DNA from: Flavobacteriaceae bacterium
Lineage (GTDB): Bacteria; Bacteroidota; Bacteroidia; Flavobacteriales; Flavobacteriaceae
Assembly: GCA_023141985.1 (NCBI GenBank)
Contig: JAGLKH010000060.1
Span: 1-16,370 of the forward strand
DNA: 16,370 nt
Reading direction: 5' to 3'
Part shown: positions 3,019 through 16,370 of the stretch, in pieces
How the letters are laid out: each line of letters starts with the position of its first letter
Position numbering within the stretch: position 1 is the first letter of the stretch
Made by a program: the position numbers and the translations under genes
Notes under the pieces: generated by a model
Told to the model about the DNA's origin: nothing
The model's input: the letters and a program-made list of their open reading frames with translations, nothing else
Database searches by the model: none

Positions 3019-3489
3019 TTATTTTGATGTTTTTCGGTTTTTGCGTCGCTTCCTTTTTTTCTTTTTCTTTTCATCTTTTGATTCTACAAAATCCATGACT
3101 TTGTATTGTTCAATTTCTTCTACAGTAAGAATTGAAGAGAGTTCTTTATAAAAATCTTTTTCTAAATCAAGAATCTTCTTTTGCCGATCTTCACGACTAT
3201 TTTTTTTATCACTAAGAATGGAATTTTGGTTTTCAAACTTCTTAATAAGGATGCTCTTTAAAATTTCCTTTTCAAATGCATCTAACTTAAACTCTTCAAT
3301 ACATTTTGGAAGTATAATATCAGTTTCTTTATAAGGATCTTTTAACTCTATATACGTTTTATTACTAATTTTTGGTGGTGGTGTATAACCCCTTTGTCCA
3401 CGCTGTATACGATCTATTTGCTGTGCATTTACCGATTGAAATGCACAGTAAACTATTATTCCAAACAAGAGAAAATATGTCTTTTTCAT
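3019..3489 (-). CDS. Small exported protein with a highly basic C-terminal tail, function unknown
   Basis: This protein has 156 residues from the ATG at 3489. An upstream in-frame TTG at 3495 is a less likely start. A signal peptide (about 1-22, ending ...SVNA before QQ) points to export. The mature N-terminus holds an Arg/Gly segment (RGQRGYTPPP). A charged, probably alpha-helical middle (about 60-130) follows, with spaced Leu/Glu/Lys reminiscent of Spy/LTXXQ-like periplasmic chaperones (SSILTVEEIEQYKVM). The last 17 residues are almost all Lys and Arg. I recognise no catalytic motif. The family resemblance is inference. The tail is encoded by an A-rich run (T-rich on + around 3035-3075) where slippage could vary its length. 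The gene lies 62 bp downstream of the M24 peptidase gene on the same strand and may share its transcript. Confidence 0.75.
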   Translation of the reverse strand: MKKTYFLLFGIIVYCAFQSVNAQQIDRIQRGQRGYTPPPKISNKTYIELKDPYKETDIILPKCIEEFKLDAFEKEILKSILIKKFENQNSILSDKKNSREDRQKKILDLEKDFYKELSSILTVEEIEQYKVMDFVESKDEKKKKKRKRRKNRKTSK

Positions 3490-3551
3490 AATCAAAATTT
3501 AATGCTGCAATTTACTAAAATTCCATTATACAACTAAATATCATATAACAA

Positions 3552-4889
3552 TTAATTTCCTTGGTGTTTTTTTATTCTTGGGATAGTTAGCAACTTTGTC
3601 TGTCTTCCATTTACATACCTAAATCCATTTTCGCCATAAAATCCAGCTTCTTCAAGCATAACCCGAATATCTCTTTTCCATTCAGGTATATTTACAGTAG
3701 CGTTTAATTCTATAGCGTATACTGTATCAGGATATAAAGGATAATCGCCTGCACCTATTACACCTTCTTGCGCATCCCACATTCCGATAGTTGGCCCTGA
3801 AGAATGCCCATAACTGCCTAATGGATGTGTGTAAATTGATGGTTTTAATCCTTGAGATTTTGCTTCTTCTAATGACTTTGTGAGTATTTGATTTCCTGTT
3901 TTTCCTGTTATAAAATTAGAAGTGAAAATATCTTGAACTTTATTACCATCTGCTAATGCATTCAGTAAAAAATCAGGTGGTAAAGTTTCTTTTGGTTTTA
4001 ATACATAAGCCAGTTCTTGACAATCTGTATTTAATCTTAAATATGTAATTCCAAAATCACAATGCAAAAGGTCTCCCGGTAAAATTATCATATCCCCTGG
4101 TCTATCATCAAATGAATATATATGACTTCCTAAATTATTATTACTTCTTTGTATGTCTACTGATGGATGAAACCATGTTTTTAACCCGATATCAGTTATT
4201 TTTTGTCTAAACCACCATTCTACATCTGTAGTTGTAGTAATTCCTGGAGTAATTACCTTTTCTGAAAAAGCTTCAGCTATAATTTCATGAGTAATATCTA
4301 CTAATTGGCTGTAAATAACCATTTCTCTTTTGGTTCTGGTTTCTATCCAAGAAGTAGCCAATTTTTCGGCTGAAACTATATTACTTGCAAATTTTTCAGG
4401 CAAATACTGCAATAATTCATCATAATCTGTTTTATCCAATCCATCAGAAATATTAAAATGAGTTGAAAAATTAAGTCCTATCGTTTTTGGGTTGCGATCT
4501 TCTATAAGTTCAATCAATCGTTTCCATTGATTAGGTTCTTTATCTTTATCCCATGCTGATAATATATTGTCTCCAAAATTATATCTGGCGACTGCAAGTT
4601 TATCTATGGTATTTTTTTCTTTATTTCTATAAAAAAGGATTATTGTCCTTCTTCTGGCATTTAACCAAGTAGAAGGTAACATTGTTTTTAAAACAGGATC
4701 TTCGTTATATTCTCTCGAAATAAGTACCCACATATCAATTCCTGAACGATCCATCAATTTGGGTAATAAATTATTTAACCTATCGGACAAAATCTCATCT
4801 ACTATTTTTGCTTGTTCCTTTTCTGATAATATTTGTTGGGCATTAATTTGAATTGTAAAGATTAGTAGTAATAAAATTAGTTTCTTCAT
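3552..4889 (-). CDS. Exported M24-family metallopeptidase (Xaa-Pro aminopeptidase-like)
   Basis: This protein has 445 residues from the ATG at 4889. The frame is open further upstream, but starting at 4889 puts a clean signal peptide (MKKLILLLLI..., ending INAQQ at 14-19) at the N-terminus. An N-terminal creatinase-like domain (about 25-180) precedes the pita-bread catalytic domain (about 190-440). The five metal ligands of the M24 family are visible: D278 in CDFG, D289 in TDCQ, H362 in YGHSSG, E394 in AIELN, and a glutamate of LEEAGF (413/414). It should therefore be an active dinuclear-metal peptidase in the periplasm, cleaving N-terminal Xaa-Pro bonds or a related peptide bond. Specificity cannot be read from sequence. 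An intrinsic terminator sits only 44 bp upstream of the start. Expression therefore needs a promoter squeezed into that gap, or read-through from the vWA operon. Confidence 0.88.
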   Translation of the reverse strand: MKKLILLLLIFTIQINAQQILSEKEQAKIVDEILSDRLNNLLPKLMDRSGIDMWVLISREYNEDPVLKTMLPSTWLNARRRTIILFYRNKEKNTIDKLAVARYNFGDNILSAWDKDKEPNQWKRLIELIEDRNPKTIGLNFSTHFNISDGLDKTDYDELLQYLPEKFASNIVSAEKLATSWIETRTKREMVIYSQLVDITHEIIAEAFSEKVITPGITTTTDVEWWFRQKITDIGLKTWFHPSVDIQRSNNNLGSHIYSFDDRPGDMIILPGDLLHCDFGITYLRLNTDCQELAYVLKPKETLPPDFLLNALADGNKVQDIFTSNFITGKTGNQILTKSLEEAKSQGLKPSIYTHPLGSYGHSSGPTIGMWDAQEGVIGAGDYPLYPDTVYAIELNATVNIPEWKRDIRVMLEEAGFYGENGFRYVNGRQTKLLTIPRIKKHQGN

Positions 4890-4932
4890 AATGGGTGTTT
4901 GATTTATAAAAATATGAATTTTTATGTTATAC

Positions 4933-4967
4933 AAAAAAAAAGAGGAGCATCAAGTAAGATACTCCTC
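4933..4967 (-). terminator. Rho-independent terminator of the vWA/VIT operon
   Basis: Read on the minus strand, GAGGAG and CTCCTC pair (4942-4947 with 4962-4967). One mismatch follows, then three more pairs (ATC/GAT) around a six-base loop, and then nine consecutive T (4933-4941). This is a canonical intrinsic terminator for transcription coming from the gene at 5030-8425. It lies 63-97 bp downstream of that gene's stop codon and 44 bp upstream of the M24 peptidase start. Confidence 0.8.
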
Positions 4968-5029: not shown

Positions 5030-8000
5030 TTATATTTCAAGTTTTGAAACGAAGATTTTATCATTCCTTTTTGTTAATCTAATAACCTTTATATCTTTGA
5101 TTTCGTTAGGTTTTCCATAATTTCTAAAAATAGTAACCTTCATAAAAGTAGGGTTTTCTATTTTTTGATATCGATCTCCAAAATAATTTACTTTAACATA
5201 ATATTCTCCATTTTTAGCATTTCTAAGTGTGAACTCTTCTGGGCCAAATCCTTGTGTCATATCTCTTGACAATTCGCCTCCTATTACTGTTTTTTCATTT
5301 AGATAATAGCATTCTTCTTTAAATGGATCGATAATATGTAAATCTATATCTGTATCGTTATGATTCCAATCAATGACAATTCTAATATCATAAGTTGTAT
5401 TTATTTTTTTATGGTTATTTAACTTTTCAGAATCAATTTCATTATTACTTTGCAATAAATTATTGATTTCATTTTTCGAAATACTTTGCATTCCAACAAA
5501 TCTTCTCCTTCCTTGTTTACTATAAATTTCTTCCGAAACTATTTTATTTAAAAGATTAAATGCTTCTTGTGACATTCCAATTTCTTGATAAGCTAATCCT
5601 AAATCTCTATAAGATTGAGAATCTTCAGGGCGTAATTTTAATACTTGTTTATATATAAATGCTGCTAATCCAAAGTTGTTTCCTTCTTCAAGTTTATAAG
5701 CAAACACTCGTAACAATTCATAATTGTCAAAGTCCAATTCAGCTATATTTGATAAAATCATCATACTATAATCTTCTTTTTTCCATTGTTTTAAAAAATC
5801 ATATACATCAATATAATATGCCGGAAAATTCAGATATTTTTTACGCTGCTTCAAATAAATAGCATAAGCTTCTTTAGCAGATTTCGCAACAGACAGTTCA
5901 TTTAAATAAGGTGTGTTTAATTTTTGTTTATAAACTTTTAATCTTCCTTTATATCTATTTTTTTGTCTTTTATTATAAATAGAACGACTGTAATTTGAAC
6001 CTCCATTACTAAAGGGTGAACCTGCTTTTGTTGTAATTAAAATCACACCATTTCTGCCAGCAGAACCATAAATTGTAGCAGCAGCAAGACCTTTAAGTAC
6101 GTTAATACTTTCAATATTGTTTGGATCTAAATCTAAAAATCTACTAGATCCAACATTACCACTAGCAAAACTACCTATTGTATTGTTATCGCTACTAAAT
6201 GGAACACCATCTACAATAAATAATGCTTGATTACTACCATTAATTGAAGAGTAACCTCTAATAATAACATTGGTAGCTGATCCAGAAATTCCACTTTGTG
6301 ATGTAATTTGTAATCCTGAAGCTTTACCAGATAAAATTCTTGCAACATCACCTTCTGCTCTTTGCTCTAAGTCATCAGCTTCTAGCATTGACACTGCATA
6401 TCCAAGAGCTTTCTTTTCTCTTTTAATACCTTGGGCTGTTACAACCACTTCATCTAGAGATGAAGCATCTTCTTGCATTGAAATATTTATATTATTGGAA
6501 CTTCCAATAGTTGTTTCGAGCGTTATCAAACCAATATAGCTAAAAGTAAGTATATCTCCAGTCCTTGCATTTATTGAATATCTTCCATCGAAATCTGTTT
6601 GAGTTCCTTGTGTAGTTCCTTTAATTAAAACATTAACACCTGGAAGTGGTATTCCTGAGTCATCTGAAATAACTCCCGAAATATTCCCGGTCTGAGTTGA
6701 AACTTGATTAGTTGCATGTGTATCAGAAGCTTGTTGTGAATCTTCATTTTCTTCATTTGTTTCATTGGTAACTGACACAATTCGTTTACCATTATTCCTA
6801 CTTATTATTCTATTGTATTCTTCAAGTAATTCTTCTGGTGGTGTGATTTTATACTTAACATAATCCCAAACTCTTTCAAGTACAATTAAAGAAGTGTGAT
6901 TACTCACTAAACTATAAAACTTACTATGTTTTATAATAGCATCTTTATTTAATTCACTTTCCGCTTGAAGCATATCAAGTTTTTTCTGAGCCCAAAATCG
7001 TTTTACTAAACTATTAGTAACATTAGACTCTAATATTACTGTTTGCTCTTTTGTAATCTCATTACCAAAACCAAAGTGTAATATTAATTCATCATTTGGA
7101 CAATAATTATTTACTGCAATTGAAAAATCTGTAGTAACTGTTTGAGGAGTATTTGGATATATTTCTAATTTGGAATTGTTTGATGTAACCCCAAGAAATT
7201 TATAAGATTCGTATTGTAATTTGTTTAAAGATTCTTGTACACTATTGTTTTTTAAATTAATGTATTTACCATTTGAAGCTTCTGAAATTTCATTAAGCTG
7301 AGAGTGGTTCGCTTTAATAATGCTGTTTACAACAAAAACTGGCTGCTTTTGTATCATTATAAAGTCACTTAAATTATTCATCCCATCGGAAAAAAGTAAA
7401 ATCTCATCAGCTTTATAATTACTCAAAATACAATTATATGATGTGCCGCCATCGTAAACGGTATTTATCAATTCTTGCTTTAAATCAATCCAATTCCCAT
7501 TTGTAATTTTATAAGACTTTTTATATCTAATTTCATTACTGAACTTTATTACTTCTACATTTACTGTATTGAGGTACTCAAAATATTGATTTAACAACTG
7601 TAATTCTTTTTGAATATCTCTTGACTTCATAGACAATGAAGTATCCCAAAACAAAGTTATTTTTTTAGCTTTCTCTCTAATACGCTTTTCTGCATTAATA
7701 GTTTGATATACATAAATATAGTCTTCAAAATCAATACTTTTAATTTTATTATATTCTTGTGGAATTTTTATAGTTAAATCGTTTCCAGGTGTAAAATTCT
7801 TTTTTGAAAATTTAGCTATATAAGAATTTTGAAACTTTTTAAAGCTAAAATTTTGCATTCCTCCTTTTGTAATTTCTGGTTTTATTTCTTGCCCAAAAAT
7901 GTTCAACTCAATAGAAAAATTATCTAAATTCTTTTTAAACCCTAAAGGCATTTGAAAATAATGTGAACCTTCGTTAAAAATTAACTCTTGTTCATAAGCA

Positions 8001-8425
8001 AGAACAACTCTTTTATAACCTCGTCTTGGAATCGGATAAATTCTAGCTTTATAATTATTACCTGTTCCTTTTTCTAAAAGCACAGGATCTACACCTCGTC
8101 TTACTACAGCTTCAAAAGCAACTCGACCTATTTCCTTTTCAACTACAACTGCCTCACGCAATTTTCCATTAACTTCTAATACTAACCTTGAAACATTTTG
8201 CCCTTCTCCAAGAGGAAAATTAAGTTCACCTTCTAAAACTTGATTTGTTGGGTTATAGAATAGCATATCATAAGTTATAGTAGCTATATTCCCAACAATT
8301 TCTACCTTAATATCTAAAGAAGTTACTCCTAATCTTTCTTCTCCAACTTTAATTGAAGGTATTTCTTGCGAACTTACTTGCATTGAAAACATCAATGCAA
8401 ATACAAATAGTAATGTACTCTTCAT
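5030..8425 (-). CDS. Mosaic exported protein: VIT, vWA, CarboxypepD_reg-like, SusC-type TonB plug, TPR, DUF2135
   Basis: This is a 1131-residue single open frame. Order: signal peptide (1-19); VIT domain (about 25-155, with YNPTNQVLEGELNFPL); vWA-like domain (about 255-405) with an intact MIDAS metal site (DTSLS 261-265, T328 in GGTS, D347 in FSDG); a polar linker (about 550-580) rich in Thr, Asn and Glu; a carboxypeptidase-regulatory-like beta-sandwich (581-650, GVNVLIKG and DFDGRYS); a TonB-receptor plug (about 655-802) with EVVVTAQGIKREKKALGYAV and a SusC/RagA signature ending IYGSAGRNGVILITTK; a basic bridge; TPR-like helices (about 885-965); and a C-terminal YfaP-type DUF2135 domain (about 1010-1100, IDWNHNDTDIDLHI). 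There is no outer-membrane barrel, so it cannot be a transporter. A periplasmic or surface-anchored adhesion or scaffold role is inferred. It starts 18 bp after the degenerate-vWA gene and is probably co-transcribed with it. Confidence 0.88.
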   Translation of the reverse strand: MKSTLLFVFALMFSMQVSSQEIPSIKVGEERLGVTSLDIKVEIVGNIATITYDMLFYNPTNQVLEGELNFPLGEGQNVSRLVLEVNGKLREAVVVEKEIGRVAFEAVVRRGVDPVLLEKGTGNNYKARIYPIPRRGYKRVVLAYEQELIFNEGSHYFQMPLGFKKNLDNFSIELNIFGQEIKPEITKGGMQNFSFKKFQNSYIAKFSKKNFTPGNDLTIKIPQEYNKIKSIDFEDYIYVYQTINAEKRIREKAKKITLFWDTSLSMKSRDIQKELQLLNQYFEYLNTVNVEVIKFSNEIRYKKSYKITNGNWIDLKQELINTVYDGGTSYNCILSNYKADEILLFSDGMNNLSDFIMIQKQPVFVVNSIIKANHSQLNEISEASNGKYINLKNNSVQESLNKLQYESYKFLGVTSNNSKLEIYPNTPQTVTTDFSIAVNNYCPNDELILHFGFGNEITKEQTVILESNVTNSLVKRFWAQKKLDMLQAESELNKDAIIKHSKFYSLVSNHTSLIVLERVWDYVKYKITPPEELLEEYNRIISRNNGKRIVSVTNETNEENEDSQQASDTHATNQVSTQTGNISGVISDDSGIPLPGVNVLIKGTTQGTQTDFDGRYSINARTGDILTFSYIGLITLETTIGSSNNINISMQEDASSLDEVVVTAQGIKREKKALGYAVSMLEADDLEQRAEGDVARILSGKASGLQITSQSGISGSATNVIIRGYSSINGSNQALFIVDGVPFSSDNNTIGSFASGNVGSSRFLDLDPNNIESINVLKGLAAATIYGSAGRNGVILITTKAGSPFSNGGSNYSRSIYNKRQKNRYKGRLKVYKQKLNTPYLNELSVAKSAKEAYAIYLKQRKKYLNFPAYYIDVYDFLKQWKKEDYSMMILSNIAELDFDNYELLRVFAYKLEEGNNFGLAAFIYKQVLKLRPEDSQSYRDLGLAYQEIGMSQEAFNLLNKIVSEEIYSKQGRRRFVGMQSISKNEINNLLQSNNEIDSEKLNNHKKINTTYDIRIVIDWNHNDTDIDLHIIDPFKEECYYLNEKTVIGGELSRDMTQGFGPEEFTLRNAKNGEYYVKVNYFGDRYQKIENPTFMKVTIFRNYGKPNEIKDIKVIRLTKRNDKIFVSKLEI

Positions 8426-8443: not shown

Positions 8444-9046
8444 TTAATTTTTAATTATCGCTAGCAATTCTGGTAATAAACTCATTGCAGTTATTAACAC
8501 AGCATTGTTTTTCTTTTTTGAAGGTTCTTTAGAAGCTCTATTATAGGTGTTTATACTTAAAGAAGCATTTGGATTTCTTACCATAACAACTGTATTTACA
8601 GCATTTTCGTCAAAATTTTCTTTCGCATAATTATAAGCCAATTCAATACCATCATTATGAAACTCTTTAACGCTGGACTTAAAATTGTTTAGTACAAATA
8701 ATATCTTTTTTATATCCTTTGGAGAAGATTGCTTTAAAGCTATCCCATTAAATCCTGAGTAAGTAACGATAGAAATATTATCATCGTCTGTCAATCTACT
8801 GGAGAGTAATTTAAATGCTTGTTTTAAAACTATTTCACTTTCTGTGTCTAGATCTGCATCTTGAGTTTGAATTAAAAACGTAATATTTTTGCTAGCTGGA
8901 TCGACATTATTTTTTATTGCGTAGTTTTCTACTATAAAAGTGATAAAGTTTTCTATTGAAACAGAATTCGTATCTATATTTTTTTCCTGTGCAATACTTA
9001 CCGCTGTTGCAAACGATACAAATATTAATATGATTAGTGTTTTCAT
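8444..9046 (-). CDS. Small exported protein with a degenerate vWA domain
   Basis: This protein has 200 residues from the ATG at 9046. The frame is open to 9073, but 9046 gives a signal peptide (1-19, ending SIAQ). Residues about 54-160 follow the vWA pattern of YfbK-like proteins: a hydrophobic first strand (NITFLIQ), a helix, then DDDNISIVTYSGFNGIAL (88-104), a helix before DGIELAYNYAKENF (132-145), and the strand NTVVMVRN (151-158). All three metal-binding loops are lost: the DxSxS position reads QTQDADLD, the GST position reads EFHND, and the ATDGD position reads VRNPN. The domain is therefore predicted to be a non-metal-binding pseudo-vWA. A Lys-rich patch and a short hydrophobic C-terminus follow. 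It is first in the operon with the 1131-residue vWA/VIT protein, and interaction between the two is inferred. The fold assignment is by pattern only. Confidence 0.72.
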   Translation of the reverse strand: MKTLIILIFVSFATAVSIAQEKNIDTNSVSIENFITFIVENYAIKNNVDPASKNITFLIQTQDADLDTESEIVLKQAFKLLSSRLTDDDNISIVTYSGFNGIALKQSSPKDIKKILFVLNNFKSSVKEFHNDGIELAYNYAKENFDENAVNTVVMVRNPNASLSINTYNRASKEPSKKKNNAVLITAMSLLPELLAIIKN

Positions 9047-9072
9047 TTGGTTTAGGTTTTTTTTAATTAGCA

Positions 9073-9107
9073 TAAAACTATATGCAATCTTTAACCTATA
9101 AAACCAA
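9073..9107 (-). promoter_or_regulatory. Putative promoter of the vWA/VIT operon
   Basis: On the minus strand, TAGTTTTA (9080 to 9073) matches seven of eight positions of TAnnTTTG. TTGGTTTT (9107 to 9100) supplies a -33-like element, with TTTT placed 19 bp upstream of the -7. The -7 element is flanked by a GCATA/TATGC inverted repeat. Transcription would start near 9066, about 20 bp before the ATG at 9046. The tandem repeat at 9109-9143 ends directly upstream of the -33 element, which is where an activator would bind. Confidence 0.4.
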
Positions 9108-9143: not shown

Positions 9144-10202
9144 CTACTTTAATAATTTTAAAGTTTCAGCACGTAGAATTTTTCCAGTTGAAGTTTCTTT
9201 AAAGTGGGTAACTGCATAAATGTGTTTTGGTATTTCATAGGTGTCTAAATCATTAAATATATCAGTATTTATGACATTAGATTTACCTTCAAGTACTAAA
9301 ATTAATTTATCTCCTAAGGTCTTATCTTTTTTAGAAGCGATAAAAAAACGCTGACTCATTTTTGCAGCAAGTTTTGCTTCTATTTGTTCTGGAAACAATT
9401 TTATTCCGCCAGAATTAATCATATTATCAAAGCGTCCTAAAACTTCAAATTCTGTTTTAGAGTGCAGCTTTACAATATCATTAGTTACTATGGTTTTGCT
9501 ATTAAGCCGAGGAGCATCAACAATAAGACAATCTCTTTCATCTACACTAATTGAAATTTCTGGTAAGAGCCTGAAATATGATTCTTCATTAAAATGATTA
9601 AGTGGTTTAATAGCAATATGAGTAACCGTTTCAGTCATTCCATACGTTGCGTACACTTTTGTAGATATATCCTTCACTTTTTCTTGTAAAGATTGAGAAA
9701 CAGTTGCTCCTCCAACAATTAATGTTTTTATGCTATCTAATTTAGCTAATGAATTTTGAAGTTGCATTGGCACCATAGCACAGAAATCGTATTTTTTTTC
9801 CACGCCTTCTAATGGATCTAAAGAAGGTTCTACAATATCTAACTCCAAACCCAAAATAATGGCTCGTACTAACATCATTTTACCAGCAATAAATTGTGTT
9901 GATAAACAATGTAGAGTCTTAGATCCTGGTTCCAGATTAAAATAGTTTCCAGTAGCAATCGCAGAATTTACCATCGCTTGCTTTTTTAGACTTATTACTT
10001 TTGGATTTCCTGTCGAACCAGATGTTTTTACAAGAATATAATCATTATCATCTAACCAATCTAATAAGAAATTACCAATACTTTTTTCAAATGGCTCTCC
10101 TTCTTTAACAAAACTATAGGCTACCTCTTTTAATTGAGTATGATTAAAATATTCTCTATTTAACTTAAATTTATTATGTACTTTAGAAAAACTTGGAATC
10201 AT
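9144..10202 (-). CDS. menE: o-Succinylbenzoate--CoA ligase (MenE), short Bacteroidota form
   Basis: This 352-residue AMP-forming acyl-CoA synthetase is shorter than the 450-500 residues of MenE in E. coli or Bacillus, but ordinary for this phylum. The N-terminal part is trimmed. It shows the phosphate loop TSGSTGNPK (60-68), YGMTE (187-191), the ribose-binding aspartate in TNDIVKL (D243), the hinge LGRFDN (255-260) and the catalytic lysine in STGKILR (K341), so it should be active. It would activate o-succinylbenzoate with ATP and CoA in menaquinone synthesis. Assignment to MenE rather than another acyl-CoA ligase rests on the short length and on menC lying 6 kb away on the same strand. It is divergent from the transglutaminase-like gene. 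No terminator follows its stop codon, which touches the tandem repeat of the next operon. Confidence 0.85.
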   Translation of the reverse strand: MIPSFSKVHNKFKLNREYFNHTQLKEVAYSFVKEGEPFEKSIGNFLLDWLDDNDYILVKTSGSTGNPKVISLKKQAMVNSAIATGNYFNLEPGSKTLHCLSTQFIAGKMMLVRAIILGLELDIVEPSLDPLEGVEKKYDFCAMVPMQLQNSLAKLDSIKTLIVGGATVSQSLQEKVKDISTKVYATYGMTETVTHIAIKPLNHFNEESYFRLLPEISISVDERDCLIVDAPRLNSKTIVTNDIVKLHSKTEFEVLGRFDNMINSGGIKLFPEQIEAKLAAKMSQRFFIASKKDKTLGDKLILVLEGKSNVINTDIFNDLDTYEIPKHIYAVTHFKETSTGKILRAETLKLLK

Positions 10203-10277: not shown

Positions 10278-10285
10278 TATATTTG
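10278..10285 (+). promoter_or_regulatory. Putative -7 element of the DUF3857 operon promoter
   Basis: TATATTTG matches the Bacteroidota -7 consensus TAnnTTTG exactly. It lies 18 bp before the ATG at 10304, so the leader would be only about a dozen bases. The nearest TTG (10249-10251) is farther upstream than the usual 19-20 bp, so the -33 element is not convincing. The element lies in the 101-bp region between this gene and the divergent menE. Confidence 0.45.
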
Positions 10286-10303
10286 ACAATTAATTTTAGA
10301 AAT

Positions 10304-12187
10304 ATGCGATATGCCTTTATAATACTGTTTTTACCATGTATAGTCTTCTCCCAAGATTTTTCTAATGAAGACTATATCTATTTAAAGCGGCATGAACATA
10401 TTAAAATAGAACTATCCAAACGTTCTTTTGATATTTCTAAACAAGTCACAGAACAAGCTCAATATTTAACTGCAAAGAAGTTGTATTTTGCAAACGAATC
10501 TTTAGGTTTTGACAGTTTTACTGCTGTTGTGGATATAAATGCATATACTTTTTTACCAAGTTTAAACAAAACGATTAATGTTGATTATATCGAAACTAAG
10601 AGAGAGTTTGATAATGGTATTTTTTATAGCGATCAAGAATCTAAAAACTTTACTTTTCCTGCTGTTACCAAAGGTGCTGTTACAAATTTAAATTATAAAG
10701 AAATAATTAAAGATCCTCGTTTTTTAGGGCTTTTTCGTTTTGGGACTTATGTTCCAACAAAAAGTGTACAATTATCTATCGAATTTCCTAAAAATGTCAC
10801 CATTGGTTATATAGATTTTAATACTGAAAATATTCCTGTTGAATTTAAAAAAGAGACTTCAAAAAAGAGTAATATTTACACCTGGACAGTAAAAAATATT
10901 GAAGGATTTCAAGGTGAAGAAAAAAGTGAGTCTGCGCTATATTACCTACCTCATATAATTGTTTATATAAAGAGTTATGAGCTAAAAGGTAAAACATATA
11001 ATGTTTTAAATGATGTGAATGATTTATACAAATGGTATGTGTCTTTAGTAAAACAAATAGATTTAAAATCTTTAGACAAGGTTTATAAAATTGCGGACGA
11101 CATCACAAAAACGCTTTCAACAAAAAGAGAAAAAGCTGAAGCTATATTTAATTGGGTGCAAAACAATATAACTTATGTTGCTTTTGAAGACGGATTAGGC
11201 GGCTTTATACCAAGAGGAGCAGCAAGTGTATGCGATAAACGTTATGGCGACTGCAAAGATATGGCAAATTTACTTTACGAAATGCTAAATTATGTTGGTA
11301 TAGAATCTTATAGAACCTGGATTGGGACAAGAAACAGGCCTTATTCCTATTTTAAGGTTCCAACACCAATGGTTGACAACCACATGATTAATACTGCCAT
11401 TATAGAAAACGATACTATCTTTTTAGATGCTACCGATAGTTTTGTGCCATTTGGTATGCCAAGTGCTTTTACGCAAACTAAAGAAGCCCTCTTAGGTCTT
11501 AATGCAGATAGTTTTAAAGTTATTAATGTCCCTATCCAAAAAGCTGACAAAAGTCAATCCATAATAACAAGCAACATTTCGCTTGAAAACGGAACTATTA
11601 AGGTTTCAGAAAAAAGAGCCTTTACAGGTTATGAAAAAGTAGATTTTATTACAGATTACACTTATAAGAAAGATGACAAAACCGAAGAAGAATATTTAAA
11701 TACCACTTTAGCCTTAGGAAATAATAAAACGCAATACAATAATATTAAAATAGAAAATTTCGATAATAAAAACACGTCTTTACTTTTAAGTTATGATCTT
11801 GCCATTGATAACTATGCGAAAACAGTCTCAAATAAAACTTATATCAATTTAAATATAGATCGCGTATTATCTAAAAGCAAAATAGATATTGAAGATAGAA
11901 AGTATAGCAAAAAAATAGATAACAAATTCAAAAAAAGCTATACTACAACCTTTACAATTCCAAATGGTTACAAAGCCGGTTATATTCCTAAAGATTTATC
12001 ATTCGATAATCCAAAATTTGGGTATAACATAGCATATACTAATAATGACAACTCTATTACACAACACAAAACTATTTATATAAATACCTTAAGTGTGAAA
12101 AATGAAGATTTTCAAACTTGGAATGATTTTATAAAAAGCCTGACAAAAGCATATAAAAAAAGTATAATAATAGAAAAGAACTTATGA
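10304..12187 (+). CDS. Exported DUF3857 protein with intact transglutaminase-like domain
   Basis: This protein has 627 residues from the ATG at 10304. The frame extends to a TTG at 10283, but 10304 gives a proper signal peptide (MRYAFIILFLPCIVFSQ). A DUF3857-like beta-rich region covers about 35-220. A transglutaminase-like core (about 260-385) carries Cys317 in RYGDCKDM, His360 in VDNHMINT and Asp375 in LDATD, the expected Cys-His-Asp triad. A further beta-rich region (about 400-620) completes the protein. It is probably a periplasmic or outer-membrane-associated protein with a papain-like active site. Whether it cross-links, deamidates or cleaves peptides is unknown for this family. Its last four bases overlap the start of the next gene (ATGA), so the two are translationally coupled and their products probably act together. 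Confidence 0.85.
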   Translation: MRYAFIILFLPCIVFSQDFSNEDYIYLKRHEHIKIELSKRSFDISKQVTEQAQYLTAKKLYFANESLGFDSFTAVVDINAYTFLPSLNKTINVDYIETKREFDNGIFYSDQESKNFTFPAVTKGAVTNLNYKEIIKDPRFLGLFRFGTYVPTKSVQLSIEFPKNVTIGYIDFNTENIPVEFKKETSKKSNIYTWTVKNIEGFQGEEKSESALYYLPHIIVYIKSYELKGKTYNVLNDVNDLYKWYVSLVKQIDLKSLDKVYKIADDITKTLSTKREKAEAIFNWVQNNITYVAFEDGLGGFIPRGAASVCDKRYGDCKDMANLLYEMLNYVGIESYRTWIGTRNRPYSYFKVPTPMVDNHMINTAIIENDTIFLDATDSFVPFGMPSAFTQTKEALLGLNADSFKVINVPIQKADKSQSIITSNISLENGTIKVSEKRAFTGYEKVDFITDYTYKKDDKTEEEYLNTTLALGNNKTQYNNIKIENFDNKNTSLLLSYDLAIDNYAKTVSNKTYINLNIDRVLSKSKIDIEDRKYSKKIDNKFKKSYTTTFTIPNGYKAGYIPKDLSFDNPKFGYNIAYTNNDNSITQHKTIYINTLSVKNEDFQTWNDFIKSLTKAYKKSIIIEKNL

Positions 12188-14115
12188 TTAAAAGGATAAT
12201 ATTTATTTTAATAATAGCAACAACTAATAGTTTTGCACAACACTATAAAACTTACGATTGGAATGAAAACCCAAAGCTTCATAACCTGACCGAAAAAGAT
12301 TTAAAAGAACCATCTGTTGGTGTTTTAAAAAAACATATTGTAGAATATAATAAAGGGTTGTTTTCTAAAGGCCTTACAAGTTTTGAAACTACACACACCA
12401 TTACCAGGGTAAATAACGAAAAAGGTATAAGCAAACATAATACGGTTTATATCCCAATGTACGACGTTAATAAAGTTATTGATATTAAAGCTAGAACCAT
12501 AAACTCTGAAGGAAAAATAACCCTCTTAAACAAGGAAAATATTAAAGAGATAAACAATGTTGAAGAGTATGGCGATTTTAAAATATTTGCTATTGAAGGA
12601 GTAGAAAAAAACTCCGAAATAGAAGTATTATATACTGTCGAAAAAGAATACGACATGCATGGTACTGAGACTATACAAAGTGATTATAAAATTAAAGAAG
12701 CACAGTTTTTGTTTATAACAGGAGATTTAAATTCTGAAATTAAAGTGTATAGAACCGAATCTTCTTTTGAGAGTATAAATGTTGAAGGCAAACAAGCAAA
12801 ATTGCTTACGCTTAATGATATTCCAGCTATGATCGAAGAAGAATATTCAACGCCTACTGCCAATAAAATTGCAGTTGTATATCAATGTTTTCCTAAAGAT
12901 CAAAACATAACACAAGAGATGTTTTGGAATAATGTTGTTAATAATGTTGGTGGAAAATTTTTTCCTGAAGAAGTGTCTCCTTTAGTGAAAAACGATATTG
13001 ATAATATTGCTAAAGGTGAAAAAGATTTAACAACTTTTGAAAAAACTTCTCTAATAGATAATTTTATTAAATCTAATTATACAATTGTAAAAAACAATAA
13101 TGCCGAACTTACCGACTTAGAATACATCATAAAAAATAGAACTTCAAGCGATTTTGGTATATTAAAAGTTTATGCGCATTACCTAAAAGCTTTAAACATT
13201 GATTACGAAATTGTGGTAACAGCAAATCGATTTACTTACAAATTCGATCCTGACTTTTTTACACCAAATATGCTTAGAGATTTCTTAATTTACTTACCTG
13301 CCGAAGAAAAATATATAGCACCAGACAGATTAGAGTATCGCGTTGGAGAAGCACCATTTCAATTATTAGGGAATTATGGGTTATATATTACTGAAAGCCT
13401 GGAATATTATTTTAGTAAAATAATACAATCTGATCCTAATTACAGTCGCATTGTAAGAAATACCGATATTACTTTTGATGAAGATATAGAAAGTGTTTCG
13501 CTTAAGCAATACCAAGAACATTCCGGACATTGGGCTGTAACTAGCAAAGCAATATTAAATTTATCTACAGAACAAGGTATAAAAGATTATGAAGATTATT
13601 TAACGAGTTCCGGTATTGAAGATAAAGTAGTAGAAAGTTTTGAAACCGAAAACACAGATATGAATTCGTTAGAATATAACTTGCCGTTTATAACAAGATG
13701 TACTATTTCTTCCGAATCGCTACTTGAAGAAGCCGGAGATAGTTATATTTTCCAAATAGGAAAAGTAATTGGCACACAAAGTGAATTATATCAAGAAACA
13801 GATCGTGTTAACCCTATAGAAATGACTTATCCTAATCAGTACGATTATGATATTAAAATACATATTCCTGAAGGCTATACTGCCGAAGGTCTTGAAGTTT
13901 TAAATATTGATAAAAGTTTTAAATCGGTTACCGGAGAGAAGATTTGCAAATTCGAATCCAGTTATAAATTAGAAGGTAATACTATTGTAATTACTATACA
14001 AGAGTTTTATAAATCTAACGAATATGATGTAAACCGTTATGATGAATTTAGAAGCGTAATTAACGCCGCTTCCGACTTTAATAAAACATCCATTTTGCTT
14101 AAAGCTATTGAGTAA
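12184..14115 (+). CDS. Exported DUF3857 protein with degenerate transglutaminase-like domain
   Basis: This 643-residue protein has a signal peptide (MIKRIIFILIIATTNSFAQ). The DUF3857 region is at about 50-235 (TRVNNEKGISKHNTVYIP). A region with transglutaminase-core spacing follows (about 285-385). Where the first gene has RYGDCKDM, this one has RTSSDFGILK, so the nucleophilic Cys is replaced (Phe324 by alignment). The His region reads PNMLRDFLIYLP and the Asp region YIAPDRLE. The domain is therefore probably catalytically dead. It starts inside the stop codon of the active homologue, which suggests an active/inactive pair, perhaps a regulatory or binding subunit. Its last 15 codons recur as a remnant at 14910-14957 beyond the higBA module. 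A hairpin repeat starts 10 bp after its stop codon. Confidence 0.85.
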   Translation: MIKRIIFILIIATTNSFAQHYKTYDWNENPKLHNLTEKDLKEPSVGVLKKHIVEYNKGLFSKGLTSFETTHTITRVNNEKGISKHNTVYIPMYDVNKVIDIKARTINSEGKITLLNKENIKEINNVEEYGDFKIFAIEGVEKNSEIEVLYTVEKEYDMHGTETIQSDYKIKEAQFLFITGDLNSEIKVYRTESSFESINVEGKQAKLLTLNDIPAMIEEEYSTPTANKIAVVYQCFPKDQNITQEMFWNNVVNNVGGKFFPEEVSPLVKNDIDNIAKGEKDLTTFEKTSLIDNFIKSNYTIVKNNNAELTDLEYIIKNRTSSDFGILKVYAHYLKALNIDYEIVVTANRFTYKFDPDFFTPNMLRDFLIYLPAEEKYIAPDRLEYRVGEAPFQLLGNYGLYITESLEYYFSKIIQSDPNYSRIVRNTDITFDEDIESVSLKQYQEHSGHWAVTSKAILNLSTEQGIKDYEDYLTSSGIEDKVVESFETENTDMNSLEYNLPFITRCTISSESLLEEAGDSYIFQIGKVIGTQSELYQETDRVNPIEMTYPNQYDYDIKIHIPEGYTAEGLEVLNIDKSFKSVTGEKICKFESSYKLEGNTIVITIQEFYKSNEYDVNRYDEFRSVINAASDFNKTSILLKAIE

Positions 14116-14125
14116 AATTTTAGTT

Positions 14126-14213
14126 GTCATTGCGAGAGAGAAATGAAGCAATCTGGTTATTTTGAGTTTCATTTAAAAAGATTACTTCGTAGTGCTTTGC
14201 TTCTCGTAATGAC
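14126..14213. repeat. REP-like hairpin element, GTCATTGCGAG type
   Basis: The terminal inverted repeats are imperfect: GTCATTGCGAG (14126-14136) pairs with CTCGTAATGAC (14203-14213) and GAAGCAATCT (14145-14154) with AGATTACTTC (14179-14188). The result is one long hairpin of 88 bp with an AT-rich centre. No coding capacity is seen. It lies between the convergent ends of the second DUF3857 gene and higA, where it may work as a bidirectional terminator. The consensus resembles short mobile-looking intergenic repeats common in Bacteroidota, which is general knowledge and was not checked here. Confidence 0.75.
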
Positions 14214-14220
14214 CGTAATG

Positions 14221-14520
14221 TCAGGCTGCATTATTTGTTATAGTTTGAATGTTGTTTAATTCATCCTTTTTGTTATTCTGCTCTTCTTCAATATCGAAAT
14301 CGTCTTGTAAACCCAACCAAAATTTAGCAGAATTGCCAAAGTATTTCGCTAGCCTTAAAGCGGTATCAGCAGTTATTCTTCTACGTTGCTTTATTATCTC
14401 ACTTATTCTTGTTTGAGGAATAAAAGTGTCTTTTGAAAGCCTGTAAGCTGTTATCCCTAACGGTTTAAGAAATTCTTCTAATAATATTTCTCCAGGATGT
14501 ATGTTCTTTAAGTTGCTCAT
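14221..14520 (-). CDS. higA: HigA-family antitoxin (XRE-type HTH)
   Basis: This 99-residue protein is of normal length for the family. It opens with the HigA signature IHPGEILLEEFLKPLGIT (7-24), followed by a helix-turn-helix (RLSKDTFIPQTRISEIIKQ) and the conserved helix TADTALRLAKYFGNSAKFWL (50-69). The C-terminal 25 residues are acidic and Asn-rich. It should neutralise the upstream-encoded HigB toxin and repress the shared promoter through the HTH. The toxin gene lies 11 bp upstream, the reversed toxin-first order typical of higBA. Confidence 0.92.
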   Translation of the reverse strand: MSNLKNIHPGEILLEEFLKPLGITAYRLSKDTFIPQTRISEIIKQRRRITADTALRLAKYFGNSAKFWLGLQDDFDIEEEQNNKKDELNNIQTITNNAA

Positions 14521-14531
14521 TGTCGCTGTTT

Positions 14532-14813
14532 TTAATGATAATCTATGATCTCTGTTTCAAAAGCATTGCCATTGTTCCAGATAAAAATAATTCGCCATTG
14601 TTTATTAATTCTAATACTGTGATATTTTTTAAGGCTTCCTCCTAATTTTTCAAGTCTATTAGAAGGAGGTATTCTCAAATCTTTAATGTCTTGCGAGTTA
14701 TTTAACATTCTGAGTTTCCGTCTTGCAATATCTTGAATATCGTTTGGTAATTTTTTAGATCTTAATCCGTCCCATACTTTCTTTGTTTCTTTATTACCAA
14801 AAGATTTTACCAT
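14532..14813 (-). CDS. higB: HigB-family toxin (RelE/ParE superfamily mRNA interferase)
   Basis: This protein has 93 residues from the ATG at 14813. The frame stays open nine codons upstream, but family members begin MIKSF-like, and 14813 follows the promoter and palindrome sensibly. Family landmarks: KSFGNKETKKVW (3-14), RKLRMLNNSQ (32-41), DLRIPPSNRLEKLGGSLKKY (45-64), HSIRINKQWRIIF (65-77) and the terminal DYH (91-93). It is predicted to cleave mRNA on the ribosome and to be held inactive by HigA, encoded 11 bp downstream. No key residue appears lost, so the module should be functional. Confidence 0.92.
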   Translation of the reverse strand: MVKSFGNKETKKVWDGLRSKKLPNDIQDIARRKLRMLNNSQDIKDLRIPPSNRLEKLGGSLKKYHSIRINKQWRIIFIWNNGNAFETEIIDYH

Positions 14814-14826
14814 AGTCCCTTTTCGC

Positions 14827-14837
14827 GTTACTAACGT
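14827..14837. promoter_or_regulatory. Palindrome, candidate HigA operator
   Basis: CGTTACTAACG is a perfect 11-bp palindrome centred on 14832, which is about where transcription from the adjacent promoter should begin. It lies 14 bp upstream of the higB start codon. A site here would let the HTH antitoxin block the promoter, the usual form of autoregulation in higBA modules. Confidence 0.45.
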
Positions 14838-14838
14838 C

Positions 14839-14869
14839 AAAAGTAAGTATAAAAATTGAAACCAGAAAG
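14839..14869 (-). promoter_or_regulatory. Promoter of higBA
   Basis: On the minus strand, TACTTTTG (14846 to 14839) is an exact match to the Bacteroidota -7 consensus TAnnTTTG. TTTC (14869 to 14866) lies exactly 19 bp upstream as a -33 element, one base off TTTG. The start site would fall near 14832, inside the palindrome, about 20 bp before the higB ATG. This is the best promoter match in the window. Confidence 0.65.
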
Positions 14870-15064: not shown

Positions 15065-16033
15065 TTACTCTAAAGTTTCAACCTCATCAACTACTGCTTC
15101 ATCAACAGGCTTTATAACTGCTCCAAAAAGTTTGTCTTTCCAATTGGTCCATTTATATTTTTTAGAAAAGATAAATAGCAGTATCGGGAAAATAACAAAT
15201 ACTGGAAGGATAGTTTCACCTACACCAACTTCTGTTGGGTCAGACATATCCTTAAAAATAGAATGTGTTTGAAATGCTGTCCAATCTGCTGTGACTAATA
15301 GGGCTGTAAATAAGTTATTGGCAGCATGAAAGCCTAAAGACAGCTCTAAACCTTCGTCCATTAATGTTGTTATTCCCAAAAAAAGGCCTGTACCTATATA
15401 ATATACTAAAATGACATAACCCAGCTTATCTACTTCAGGGTTGGCAATATGTAATAACCCAAAAACTACAGATGTAATTATTAATGGTACCCATTTATTC
15501 TTCGCTATCAATCCAATCCCTTGCATAAGATATCCTCTAAATAAATATTCTTCAAAACTTGTTTGTATAGGTACCAAAAGAATCGCAATTACGCAAAGTA
15601 TTAAAAAAGGCTGCAAATTAAAGTTATAAACATAACCTTCTGGATTTAAAAAATAATCTGTTAATACTAATCCGGAAGACACAATACCCCAAAATATAAA
15701 GGCAAACCAAAAGCGTTTCCAATCTATCCTTTCCCTTGCTGTAGTTAACATTCTAAACGACTGTTTGTGCAAGTATTTAACCGTTAAAATTAAAAACAAG
15801 AAACCTCCTGCAAATGATAAAAGCATTAGAAAAAGATTCAAATTAGGTTCTAGAAAAGAAAGCATTTTTTGCTCATCCATATCTTGAAGGCTTTCTCCAC
15901 TTTTAAATGCTTTAAAAAAAACTGCAATAGTGAATGGAATTTGCCCAATTAGAACACCAATAATAGCAACACCTACTCCAATAATATATCTCCACCAATC
16001 ATGCGATGTTTTATAAACTTGAGCTATATACAT
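15065..16033 (-). CDS. CPBP-family intramembrane protease (CAAX/Abi-type)
   Basis: This 322-residue integral membrane protein has about eight hydrophobic segments. The three catalytic motifs of the CPBP (Rce1-like) glutamic endopeptidase family are present: EEYLFR (161-166), FGLLH (191-195) and HAAN (236-239), so the active site is intact. Relatives cleave within or next to the membrane or act in bacteriocin immunity, but the substrate here is unknown. A soluble tail rich in Asp, Glu and Val (about 300-322) follows the last helix. It starts 4 bp after the menC stop codon and is surely co-transcribed with it. Membership in a menaquinone operon does not by itself imply a role in quinone synthesis. 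Confidence 0.9.
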   Translation of the reverse strand: MYIAQVYKTSHDWWRYIIGVGVAIIGVLIGQIPFTIAVFFKAFKSGESLQDMDEQKMLSFLEPNLNLFLMLLSFAGGFLFLILTVKYLHKQSFRMLTTARERIDWKRFWFAFIFWGIVSSGLVLTDYFLNPEGYVYNFNLQPFLILCVIAILLVPIQTSFEEYLFRGYLMQGIGLIAKNKWVPLIITSVVFGLLHIANPEVDKLGYVILVYYIGTGLFLGITTLMDEGLELSLGFHAANNLFTALLVTADWTAFQTHSIFKDMSDPTEVGVGETILPVFVIFPILLFIFSKKYKWTNWKDKLFGAVIKPVDEAVVDEVETLE

Positions 16034-16037
16034 ATTT

Positions 16038-16370
16038 TTAAAAATTTAAATTCCACTGTTGTTTTGGTTCATATCGCAATGTACCGTTTTCTACTTTTAA
16101 AGGCGATAAAAAATTGTTAGTAAATAAGCTACCTGTACCCAAACCCTGAGGCATTTCATTATTCAAAGTATAAGTCCACTGTGCAATAGCATTAAGTCCA
16201 ATGTTACTTTCTAATGCACTTGTAATCCACCATTTAATATTTTGCTTTTCTGCTATTTCAATCCATTCATGGCTTCCTTTAAAACCACCAATCAAACTTG
16301 GTTTTAAAATAATGTATTGCGGATGTATAGTTTGTAGTAATTCCTCCTTTTTTGTTACATCAAATATGCC
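16038..16370 (-). CDS. menC: o-Succinylbenzoate synthase (MenC), C-terminal part, 5' end outside the window
   Basis: The last 110 codons are present, and the frame is open to the window edge at 16370. It shows the enolase-superfamily barrel segment ILKPSLIGGFKGS, with the conserved strand-6 lysine, and WWITSALESNIGLNAIAQW. The signature ALESNIG and the following PQGLGTG are typical of o-succinylbenzoate synthase. The enzyme dehydrates SHCHC to o-succinylbenzoate, the substrate of MenE, which is encoded at 9144-10202 on the same strand. The upstream metal ligands lie outside the window. Confidence 0.9.
   Translation of the reverse strand, partial: GIFDVTKKEELLQTIHPQYIILKPSLIGGFKGSHEWIEIAEKQNIKWWITSALESNIGLNAIAQWTYTLNNEMPQGLGTGSLFTNNFLSPLKVENGTLRYEPKQQWNLNF

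Follow-up and report, generated by a model that had tools for sequence, protein, structure and literature searches.

A SusC-type cassette of N-terminal extension, TonB box and plug inside a barrel-less, ITIH-like envelope protein of the Flavobacteriaceae, and the case for its repeated exchange

The window analysed here is the whole stretch of 16,370 nucleotides presented as contig JAGLKH010000060.1 of the Flavobacteriaceae bacterium assembly GCA_023141985.1. Its gene 5030..8425 (see Table 1) appears from its sequence to encode a large exported envelope protein of a marine flavobacterium, resembling the inter-alpha-inhibitor heavy chains (ITIH) and holding within it the front part of a nutrient transporter, on the side facing the periplasm, without the pore. 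This part consists of an N-terminal extension (NTE), a TonB box and a plug, together called the cassette below, and the place which it occupies between the head and the tail of the protein is called the slot.

Table 1. Features of gene 5030..8425 and of the adjoining companion gene, in window positions and in residues of the respective product.
Feature	Position	Strand	Residues	Remarks
Whole gene	5030..8425	(-)	1131 aa	signal peptide, ITIH-like VIT/vWA head, NTE, TonB box, SusC plug, TPR, DUF2135
Signal peptide	8369..8425	(-)	1-19	read by eye; next residue Gln20
VIT + vWA head	6806..8338	(-)	30-540	inter-alpha-inhibitor heavy-chain-like
Linker	6695..6832	(-)	532-577	mostly disordered in predicted model
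NTE	6458..6694	(-)	578-656	SusC-type (CarbopepD_reg_2)
TonB box LDEVVVTA	6434..6457	(-)	657-664	motif comparison
SusC-type plug	6017..6433	(-)	665-803	likeness of cassette to SusC stops at its end
Helical TPR region	5531..5908	(-)	840-965	
DUF2135 (YfaP-like) region	5066..5413	(-)	1005-1120	Pfam match 1070-1117
Reduced YfbK-type vWA protein	8444..9073	(-)	209 aa	adjoins main gene; inner ATG 9046

Residue Q20 is invariant across 77 rows of the alignment, and no lipobox was found at the N terminus on inspection by eye. A Q-rule has been described for the signal peptides of Bacteroidetes (PMC5837995; this and the other articles cited are used through the accessible parts of their text). The metal ion-dependent adhesion site (MIDAS) of the head is intact, with residues D261, S263, S265, D325, T328 and D347. 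The initial annotation of this DNA had described the VIT, vWA and DUF2135 domains as an adhesion-like set, which is partly right: the head is ITIH-like, while display at the surface would be a possibility, the termini having been read by eye. In the DUF2135 region the motif DWNHNDTD occupies residues 1019-1026, and the Pfam score of 40 bits passes the gathering score of 22. In the full-length structure model the predicted local distance difference test (pLDDT) value is below 50 for residues 546-578 and for the TonB box, which the model shows within a disordered segment that joins the NTE to the plug.

The cassette was matched by the families PF13715, PF07715 and TIGR04057 (47.1 bits against a cut-off of 46.2). 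NTE, TonB box and plug follow in the same order in SusC/RagA transporters (TIGR04056), in which, however, the cassette is N-terminal and a beta-barrel comes after the plug, whereas in the window protein it is internal to a multidomain protein without a barrel. TIGR04056 aligned over positions 2-208 of 981 only (249.4 bits against a cut-off of 368.25), and no barrel family was among the Pfam matches. An overlooked barrel, a reservation of the initial annotation, was ruled out by these scans of the full protein, and its description of a SusC-type plug without a barrel in a VIT/vWA/TPR/DUF2135 protein was confirmed. The limits of the cassette are precise, the first being where mature SusC starts and the second where its plug ends: alignment with the SusC protein L002 of the same genome is limited to residues 578-803 against SusC residues 23-248, at 75% amino acid identity (76% when the two cassettes were compared). 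The TonB box is present as a sequence motif between NTE and plug and was compared with the box VDEVVV of the SusC protein Bt1763 (PMC7782687). No adjacent SusD gene was found among the window products scanned with Pfam, three of which had no significant family.

The protein belongs to a widespread family and is not one odd gene. A total of 2092 proteins matched, and in the best 120 of them, that of the window among these, the slot, assigned with models made in this analysis, held NTE and plug in 68, a TonB_C-type domain in 30 and an NTE only in four, and was empty in 18. The initial annotation had proposed a search for the same domain order in relatives, and the five-domain order of the window protein was found in all 68 of the first group. 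At 78 genomic loci, obtained from the best 80 of 111 contig matches, the main gene carried NTE and plug in 55, TonB_C in 11, an empty slot in five, an NTE only in five and a plug remnant without NTE in two. Misassembly, and a plug confined to this strain, are ruled out, as relatives hold the same cassette at the same site. With up to 12 candidates scored per genome, a match at E <= 1e-150 was obtained in three of 60 relative genomes (the window's own included) and in none of four genomes of the same genus, which makes the distribution patchy. Such proteins are named in the databases as "TonB-dependent receptor plug domain-containing protein" or "VIT domain-containing protein".

In a FastTree phylogeny of the backbone without the slot (136 rows), proteins with NTE and plug fell into several groups, and those with TonB_C or an empty slot formed one further group. 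Fifteen changes were needed for the five slot states, the NTE-only state alone taking five. The TonB_C-type slot model was built from protein P0062, in which Pfam TonB_C scored above its cut-off. TonB_C-type and plug-type copies occurred together in four of 22 genomes, which were chosen for holding the family and whose slot states were deduced from the break points of matches; by match pattern the other 18 held the plug/NTE type only. The two types are thus not in general a co-occurring pair.

The history of the cassette differs from that of the protein which carries it. Compared with the window protein, P0004 is 49% identical in the cassette and 68% in the backbone, and P0039 is 71% identical in the cassette and only 46% in the backbone. 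A cassette tree was built from 34 VIT rows, taken from the query's side of the backbone tree, and 32 SusC rows, leaving out L052, the YfbK proteins, short and paralogue rows, and the VIT rows beyond the chosen 34. Ten of the SusC rows were verified past the plug in TIGR04056 and the others were judged by frame length; two VIT fragments (L049 and L083) were excluded from them. The VIT cassettes did not form one clade, six changes being required, five of which were forced by supported branches. A single VIT clade was seen in 0% of 200 bootstrap trees (the bootstrap being not fully settled) and had a p value of 4.5e-60 in the approximately unbiased (AU) test. At 324 the underlying log-likelihood gap is very wide, and a poor constrained search may account for part of it, for which reason reliance was placed also on the bootstrap and on distance correlations.

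Among the 34 VIT proteins the identity of the plug was unrelated to that of the head, at a Spearman rho of 0.006 (permutation p 0.46). Head and tail, in contrast, gave a rho of 0.81, and the NTE followed the head weakly (0.26). In the control set of 32 SusC proteins plug and barrel agreed with a rho of 0.57, rising to 0.82 in the 38 pairs whose barrel parts were at least 30% identical, which indicates that plug identity does carry descent. Agreement between NTE and plug is poor even among SusC proteins (0.16), so that this correlation was dropped as proof of reassortment within the cassette. A single acquisition followed by vertical descent is rejected for the 34 VIT proteins by tree, AU test and distance correlations. 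That the cassette has been swapped several times, and not once, for SusC-type cassettes is therefore strongly supported by the sequence comparisons, and the module transfer from a SusC paralogue foreseen in the initial annotation becomes a series of events.

The five SusC proteins adjoining the window's cassette group in the tree are 55-81% alike over 421-764 residues including the cassette, and the sequences suggest, in a tree that is unrooted, a transfer from SusC to VIT proteins. The best SusC match lay in the same genome for six of 14 VIT cassettes (permutation p 0.0002) and elsewhere for eight, in a sample biased by the use of the window cassette as the query that fetched most of the SusC loci. 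The best non-VIT match of the L036 cassette is in its own genome (54%); for the L015 cassette it comes from elsewhere, at 52%, the match within its own genome reaching 48%. SusC proteins linked to the beta-barrel assembly machinery (BAM) were considered as donors and rejected: the donor-like SusC protein L087 was nearest to BT_2264 (5fq6) among solved structures, and the accessible text of a paper on the BAM of F. johnsoniae (PMC12611786) gave no link.

Selection on the parts of the protein was estimated as the ratio of nonsynonymous to synonymous substitution rates (dN/dS) in 18 pairs, of which the nine with dS between 0.6 and 1.8 were used. Values of 0.12-0.38 were obtained for the plug, 0.09-0.31 for the NTE, 0.08-0.16 for the head and 0.07-0.15 for the tail. 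Purifying selection acts on the plug at about half the strength that it has in the rest of the protein. The core of the box, L-x-E-V-V, is conserved at 0.95, 0.95, 0.93 and 0.83 in 121 VIT rows, about equal to the 0.94, 0.91, 0.91 and 0.91 of 33 SusC rows, and the third V is less conserved in VIT than in SusC rows (0.71 against 0.79). The strict box pattern was found in 30 of the 34 rows of the more distant backbone clade, and in all ten rows with an NTE and no plug (eight distinct proteins).

Cassettes of this kind were also found in two other classes of envelope protein. The 209-residue companion of the main gene has lost its MIDAS; its best homologue (E 3e-46) adjoins the family gene in locus L019, as does another homologue in L042, and full YfbK proteins match it too. 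By eye, a hydrophobic C-terminal stretch (NNAVLITAMSLLPELLAIIKN in the window) is similar in this companion and in those at L019 5218-5889 and L042 5210-5899. Full YfbK-type genes stand beside the family gene in nine of the 78 loci (L012, L019, L025, L028, L040, L053, L061, L074 and L077), that of L019 being spread over several frames. All nine products have an NTE at the N terminus, and five (L012, L025, L028, L061 and L074) have a plug by Pfam. These Flavobacteriaceae YfbK proteins thus combine vWA and NTE, often with a plug, like the window protein, from which they differ in having vWF_A, VWA and YfbK_C domains and an N-terminal, not an internal, cassette. Every one of the best 120 listed relatives of the L012 protein is matched by both the NTE model and the plug model of this analysis, which is no census, as the query itself bore the cassette, and Pfam Plug was unlisted for some (e.g., P0132 and P0136).

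The second class is that of the alpha-2-macroglobulins (A2M). Two of these, in L120 (5765-12238, 2157 aa) and L121 (4135-10680, 2181 aa), carry an NTE ahead of the A2M domain; the former has a Pfam plug as well, and in the latter the NTE is preceded by a weak match to the bait region. In L120 a second A2M frame, of 1085 aa, stands in tandem and is without NTE or plug by Pfam, and cassette matches also occur in frames of 2123-2213 aa in genomes G005, G006 and G080. When nine YfbK and A2M cassettes were compared, the best match was a SusC protein in three and a YfbK or VIT cassette in six. The YfbK cassettes of L019 and L053 are best matched by a SusC protein of the same genome, and the A2M cassette of L120 by that of another Lacinutrix, followed in each case by VIT cassettes of the lineage concerned. 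E. coli has a link between A2M, YfbK and DUF2135 proteins in its yfa genes.

The family gene occupies a conserved place, since a homologue of the menE-like window gene 9144-10202 is nearby in 25 of the 78 loci; among these the slot holds NTE and plug in 24 and an NTE only in one. In relatives, genes of cluster 3 (products of about 350 aa) and cluster 2 (about 323 aa) are followed on one strand by the menE-like gene and the VIT gene, and the window genes 16038-16370, 15065-16033 and 9144-10202 correspond to clusters 3, 2 and 1, respectively. A HigB/HTH (helix-turn-helix) toxin-antitoxin pair and two plus-strand genes, one of them DUF3857/transglutaminase, part 9144-10202 from clusters 2 and 3, and this region (10283-14840) looks like an insertion. 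Downstream of the VIT gene, window positions 3019-4934 correspond to 9363-11379 in L009 (M24 peptidase gene 79%, 158-aa gene 58% identity), so that synteny reaches the downstream side too in the nearest relative. Zero Rfam matches were obtained within the window.

Several paralogues depart from the usual layout. Downstream of the main gene, L009 has a highly divergent second member of 756 aa (11630-13897) with a head piece, NTE, plug and TPR region, and on a long branch in the cassette tree. In the window's own genome, a paralogue truncated by the contig end (L006, 1292-3679) has two units of NTE and degenerate plug before its TPR/DUF2135-model match. Headless short proteins with NTE, plug and a TPR/DUF2135 part are present in L012, L014, L019, L023, L025 and L028; when two were scanned, Pfam reported DUF2135 in that of L025 and not in that of L014.

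It is proposed, with a probability of about 0.45, that this exported ITIH-like envelope protein uses its SusC-derived cassette as a module for coupling to the Ton system. TonB would attach to the exposed box, the choice among TonB paralogues possibly lying with the NTE, and would position the head with its MIDAS and the tail of TPR and DUF2135, or exert a pull on them. The plug would then be a force-labile spacer or clamp between head and tail, and not a gate, and through replacement of the cassette, box and NTE would go on fitting the resident TonB. In a SusC protein, transport requires the TonB box, and the NTE has been suggested as a TonB-specificity element, its role also being called unknown (PMC7782687). 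According to the accessible part of a review, TonB unfolds the weak half of transporter plugs under force, which is why the plug could be the force-labile element here. A TonB-system partner, one option of the initial annotation, fits the box, the NTE and the TonB_C domain of the sister clade, and may be suspected from these.

Several observations weigh against such coupling. The plug is poorly modelled (pLDDT about 36-72), and the same review reports that the isolated FepA plug is unfolded. The plug of this family changes about twice as fast as the rest of the protein and, as the NTE-only state needs five changes, is dispensable. Protein P0073 is of the TonB_C type by the model made here, and Pfam reported no TonB_C in it. 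As far as sequence can tell, the box by itself falls short of proving TonB binding, and a conserved box would also come along with recent replacement from SusC. Among plug-less NTE proteins of the same genomes (L122-L132 set), the strict box was seen in five of 14 rows, two of the 14 being poor matches, with near misses in several more. Retention of the box upon plug loss is consequently no specific sign of TonB binding and was dropped as proof of it. Either TonB boxes are commoner outside transporters than assumed, or LDEVVV-like motifs are a general end of NTE-type domains.

Some of these points would be expected if, as is less probable, NTE and plug are a spacer or protein-interaction domain without a role for TonB, in a slot that recombination overwrites owing to the number and likeness of SusC genes. 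The faster evolution of the plug and the wider occurrence of box-like motifs after NTE domains are in line with this, as are the loss of the plug in several lineages, the empty slot in 18 of the 120 listed proteins and the ample donor sequence (twenty SusC-model matches over the cut-off in genome G002). However, the dN/dS of the plug is well below 1, SusC-type motifs are retained, and for a mere spacer it would be an odd coincidence that the sister clade has a TonB_C-type domain at this place.

It is improbable that the protein serves in defence, as an ITIH- or A2M-like envelope protein showing a copy of a Ton component to agents that parasitise or cleave TonB transporters, with the bait renewed from resident SusC. 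The analogy here is with the integrated decoys of plants. The Flavobacteriaceae ITIH-like, YfbK-like and A2M proteins would be an analogue of such decoy receptors, with interchangeable Ton baits copied from resident SusC, in the form of SusC NTE, box and plug or, in the ITIH-like family, of TonB_C. Repeated replacement, the same-genome best SusC match of six of the 14 VIT cassettes, the Ton-related nature of the domains seen in the slot and related cassettes in alpha-2-macroglobulins, a class proposed to inhibit invading proteases (PMC4498604), speak for this. Nevertheless, the SusC sample was picked by similarity to the window cassette and eight of the 14 best matches lie outside the own genome; no PADLOC family matched any of the five proteins tested (E up to 0.01), Pfam shows no executioner domain, and there is no known defence phenotype. 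Docking of the plug in trans into a SusC barrel, which it would close or modulate, had been put forward in the initial annotation and has little chance of being right: in three genomes of relatives with the gene (49 candidates scored in each, of 55, 81 and 70, respectively) all SusC matches over the cut-off begin at profile position 36 or before and hence bear a plug, below it are the rear half of a SusC gene that is divided over two neighbouring frames (G001 C33) and, in a frame of 768 aa, a weak match to part of the barrel (G006 C1, 44 bits), and 18 neighbour products scanned with Pfam held one SusC-like fragment (L052, about 4 kb off and cut by the locus end).

Among known systems, the ITIH heavy chains share with the window protein a VIT domain and a MIDAS-bearing vWA domain in heavy-chain arrangement. 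The root-mean-square deviation of 7.2 over the whole of ITIH1 (PDB 6fpy) points to a shared arrangement rather than a close fit, and the window protein differs in being bacterial and in having cassette, TPR and DUF2135 after the head. The ITIH heavy chain is C-terminally ester-linked to a partner. As a marine sortase target (TIGR03788) the window protein scored 48.6 bits against 551.65, which is below the full-length equivalog. YfbK-like vWA modules have been proposed as periplasmic force transducers coupled to Ton/Tol-like motors (PMC12204202). Many of these have a membrane helix with an SHLS motif, whereas the window protein has a signal-peptide-like N terminus and a SusC cassette; the motif S-x-H-x-L-x-S, as defined in that article, was absent from its N terminus. 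PorE likewise belongs to the envelope of Bacteroidota and has a carboxypeptidase-type (NTE-like) domain, and it has been suggested to be coupled to force in a TonB/TolA-like way, but it is a lipoprotein with TolB/CpoB/Pal-like parts and, in the accessible part of PMC12204202, no mention of a plug.

Literature searches, with most subscription papers outside their reach, turned up no account of this architecture or its turnover. The constituent domains are already annotated; what appears to be new is the reuse of the coupling end of a transporter in ITIH-like, YfbK-like and A2M envelope proteins. Plug and box of TonB-dependent transporters are understood as parts of a pore, and here they form an exchangeable module in envelope proteins that are not transporters, with the TonB_C-type domain as an alternative filling of the same slot. 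The NTE gains natural swap experiments for TonB specificity. If the module is a bait, this would be a new kind of envelope defence; if it binds TonB, the work of the Ton motor in Bacteroidota would extend to driving or positioning proteins that are not transporters.

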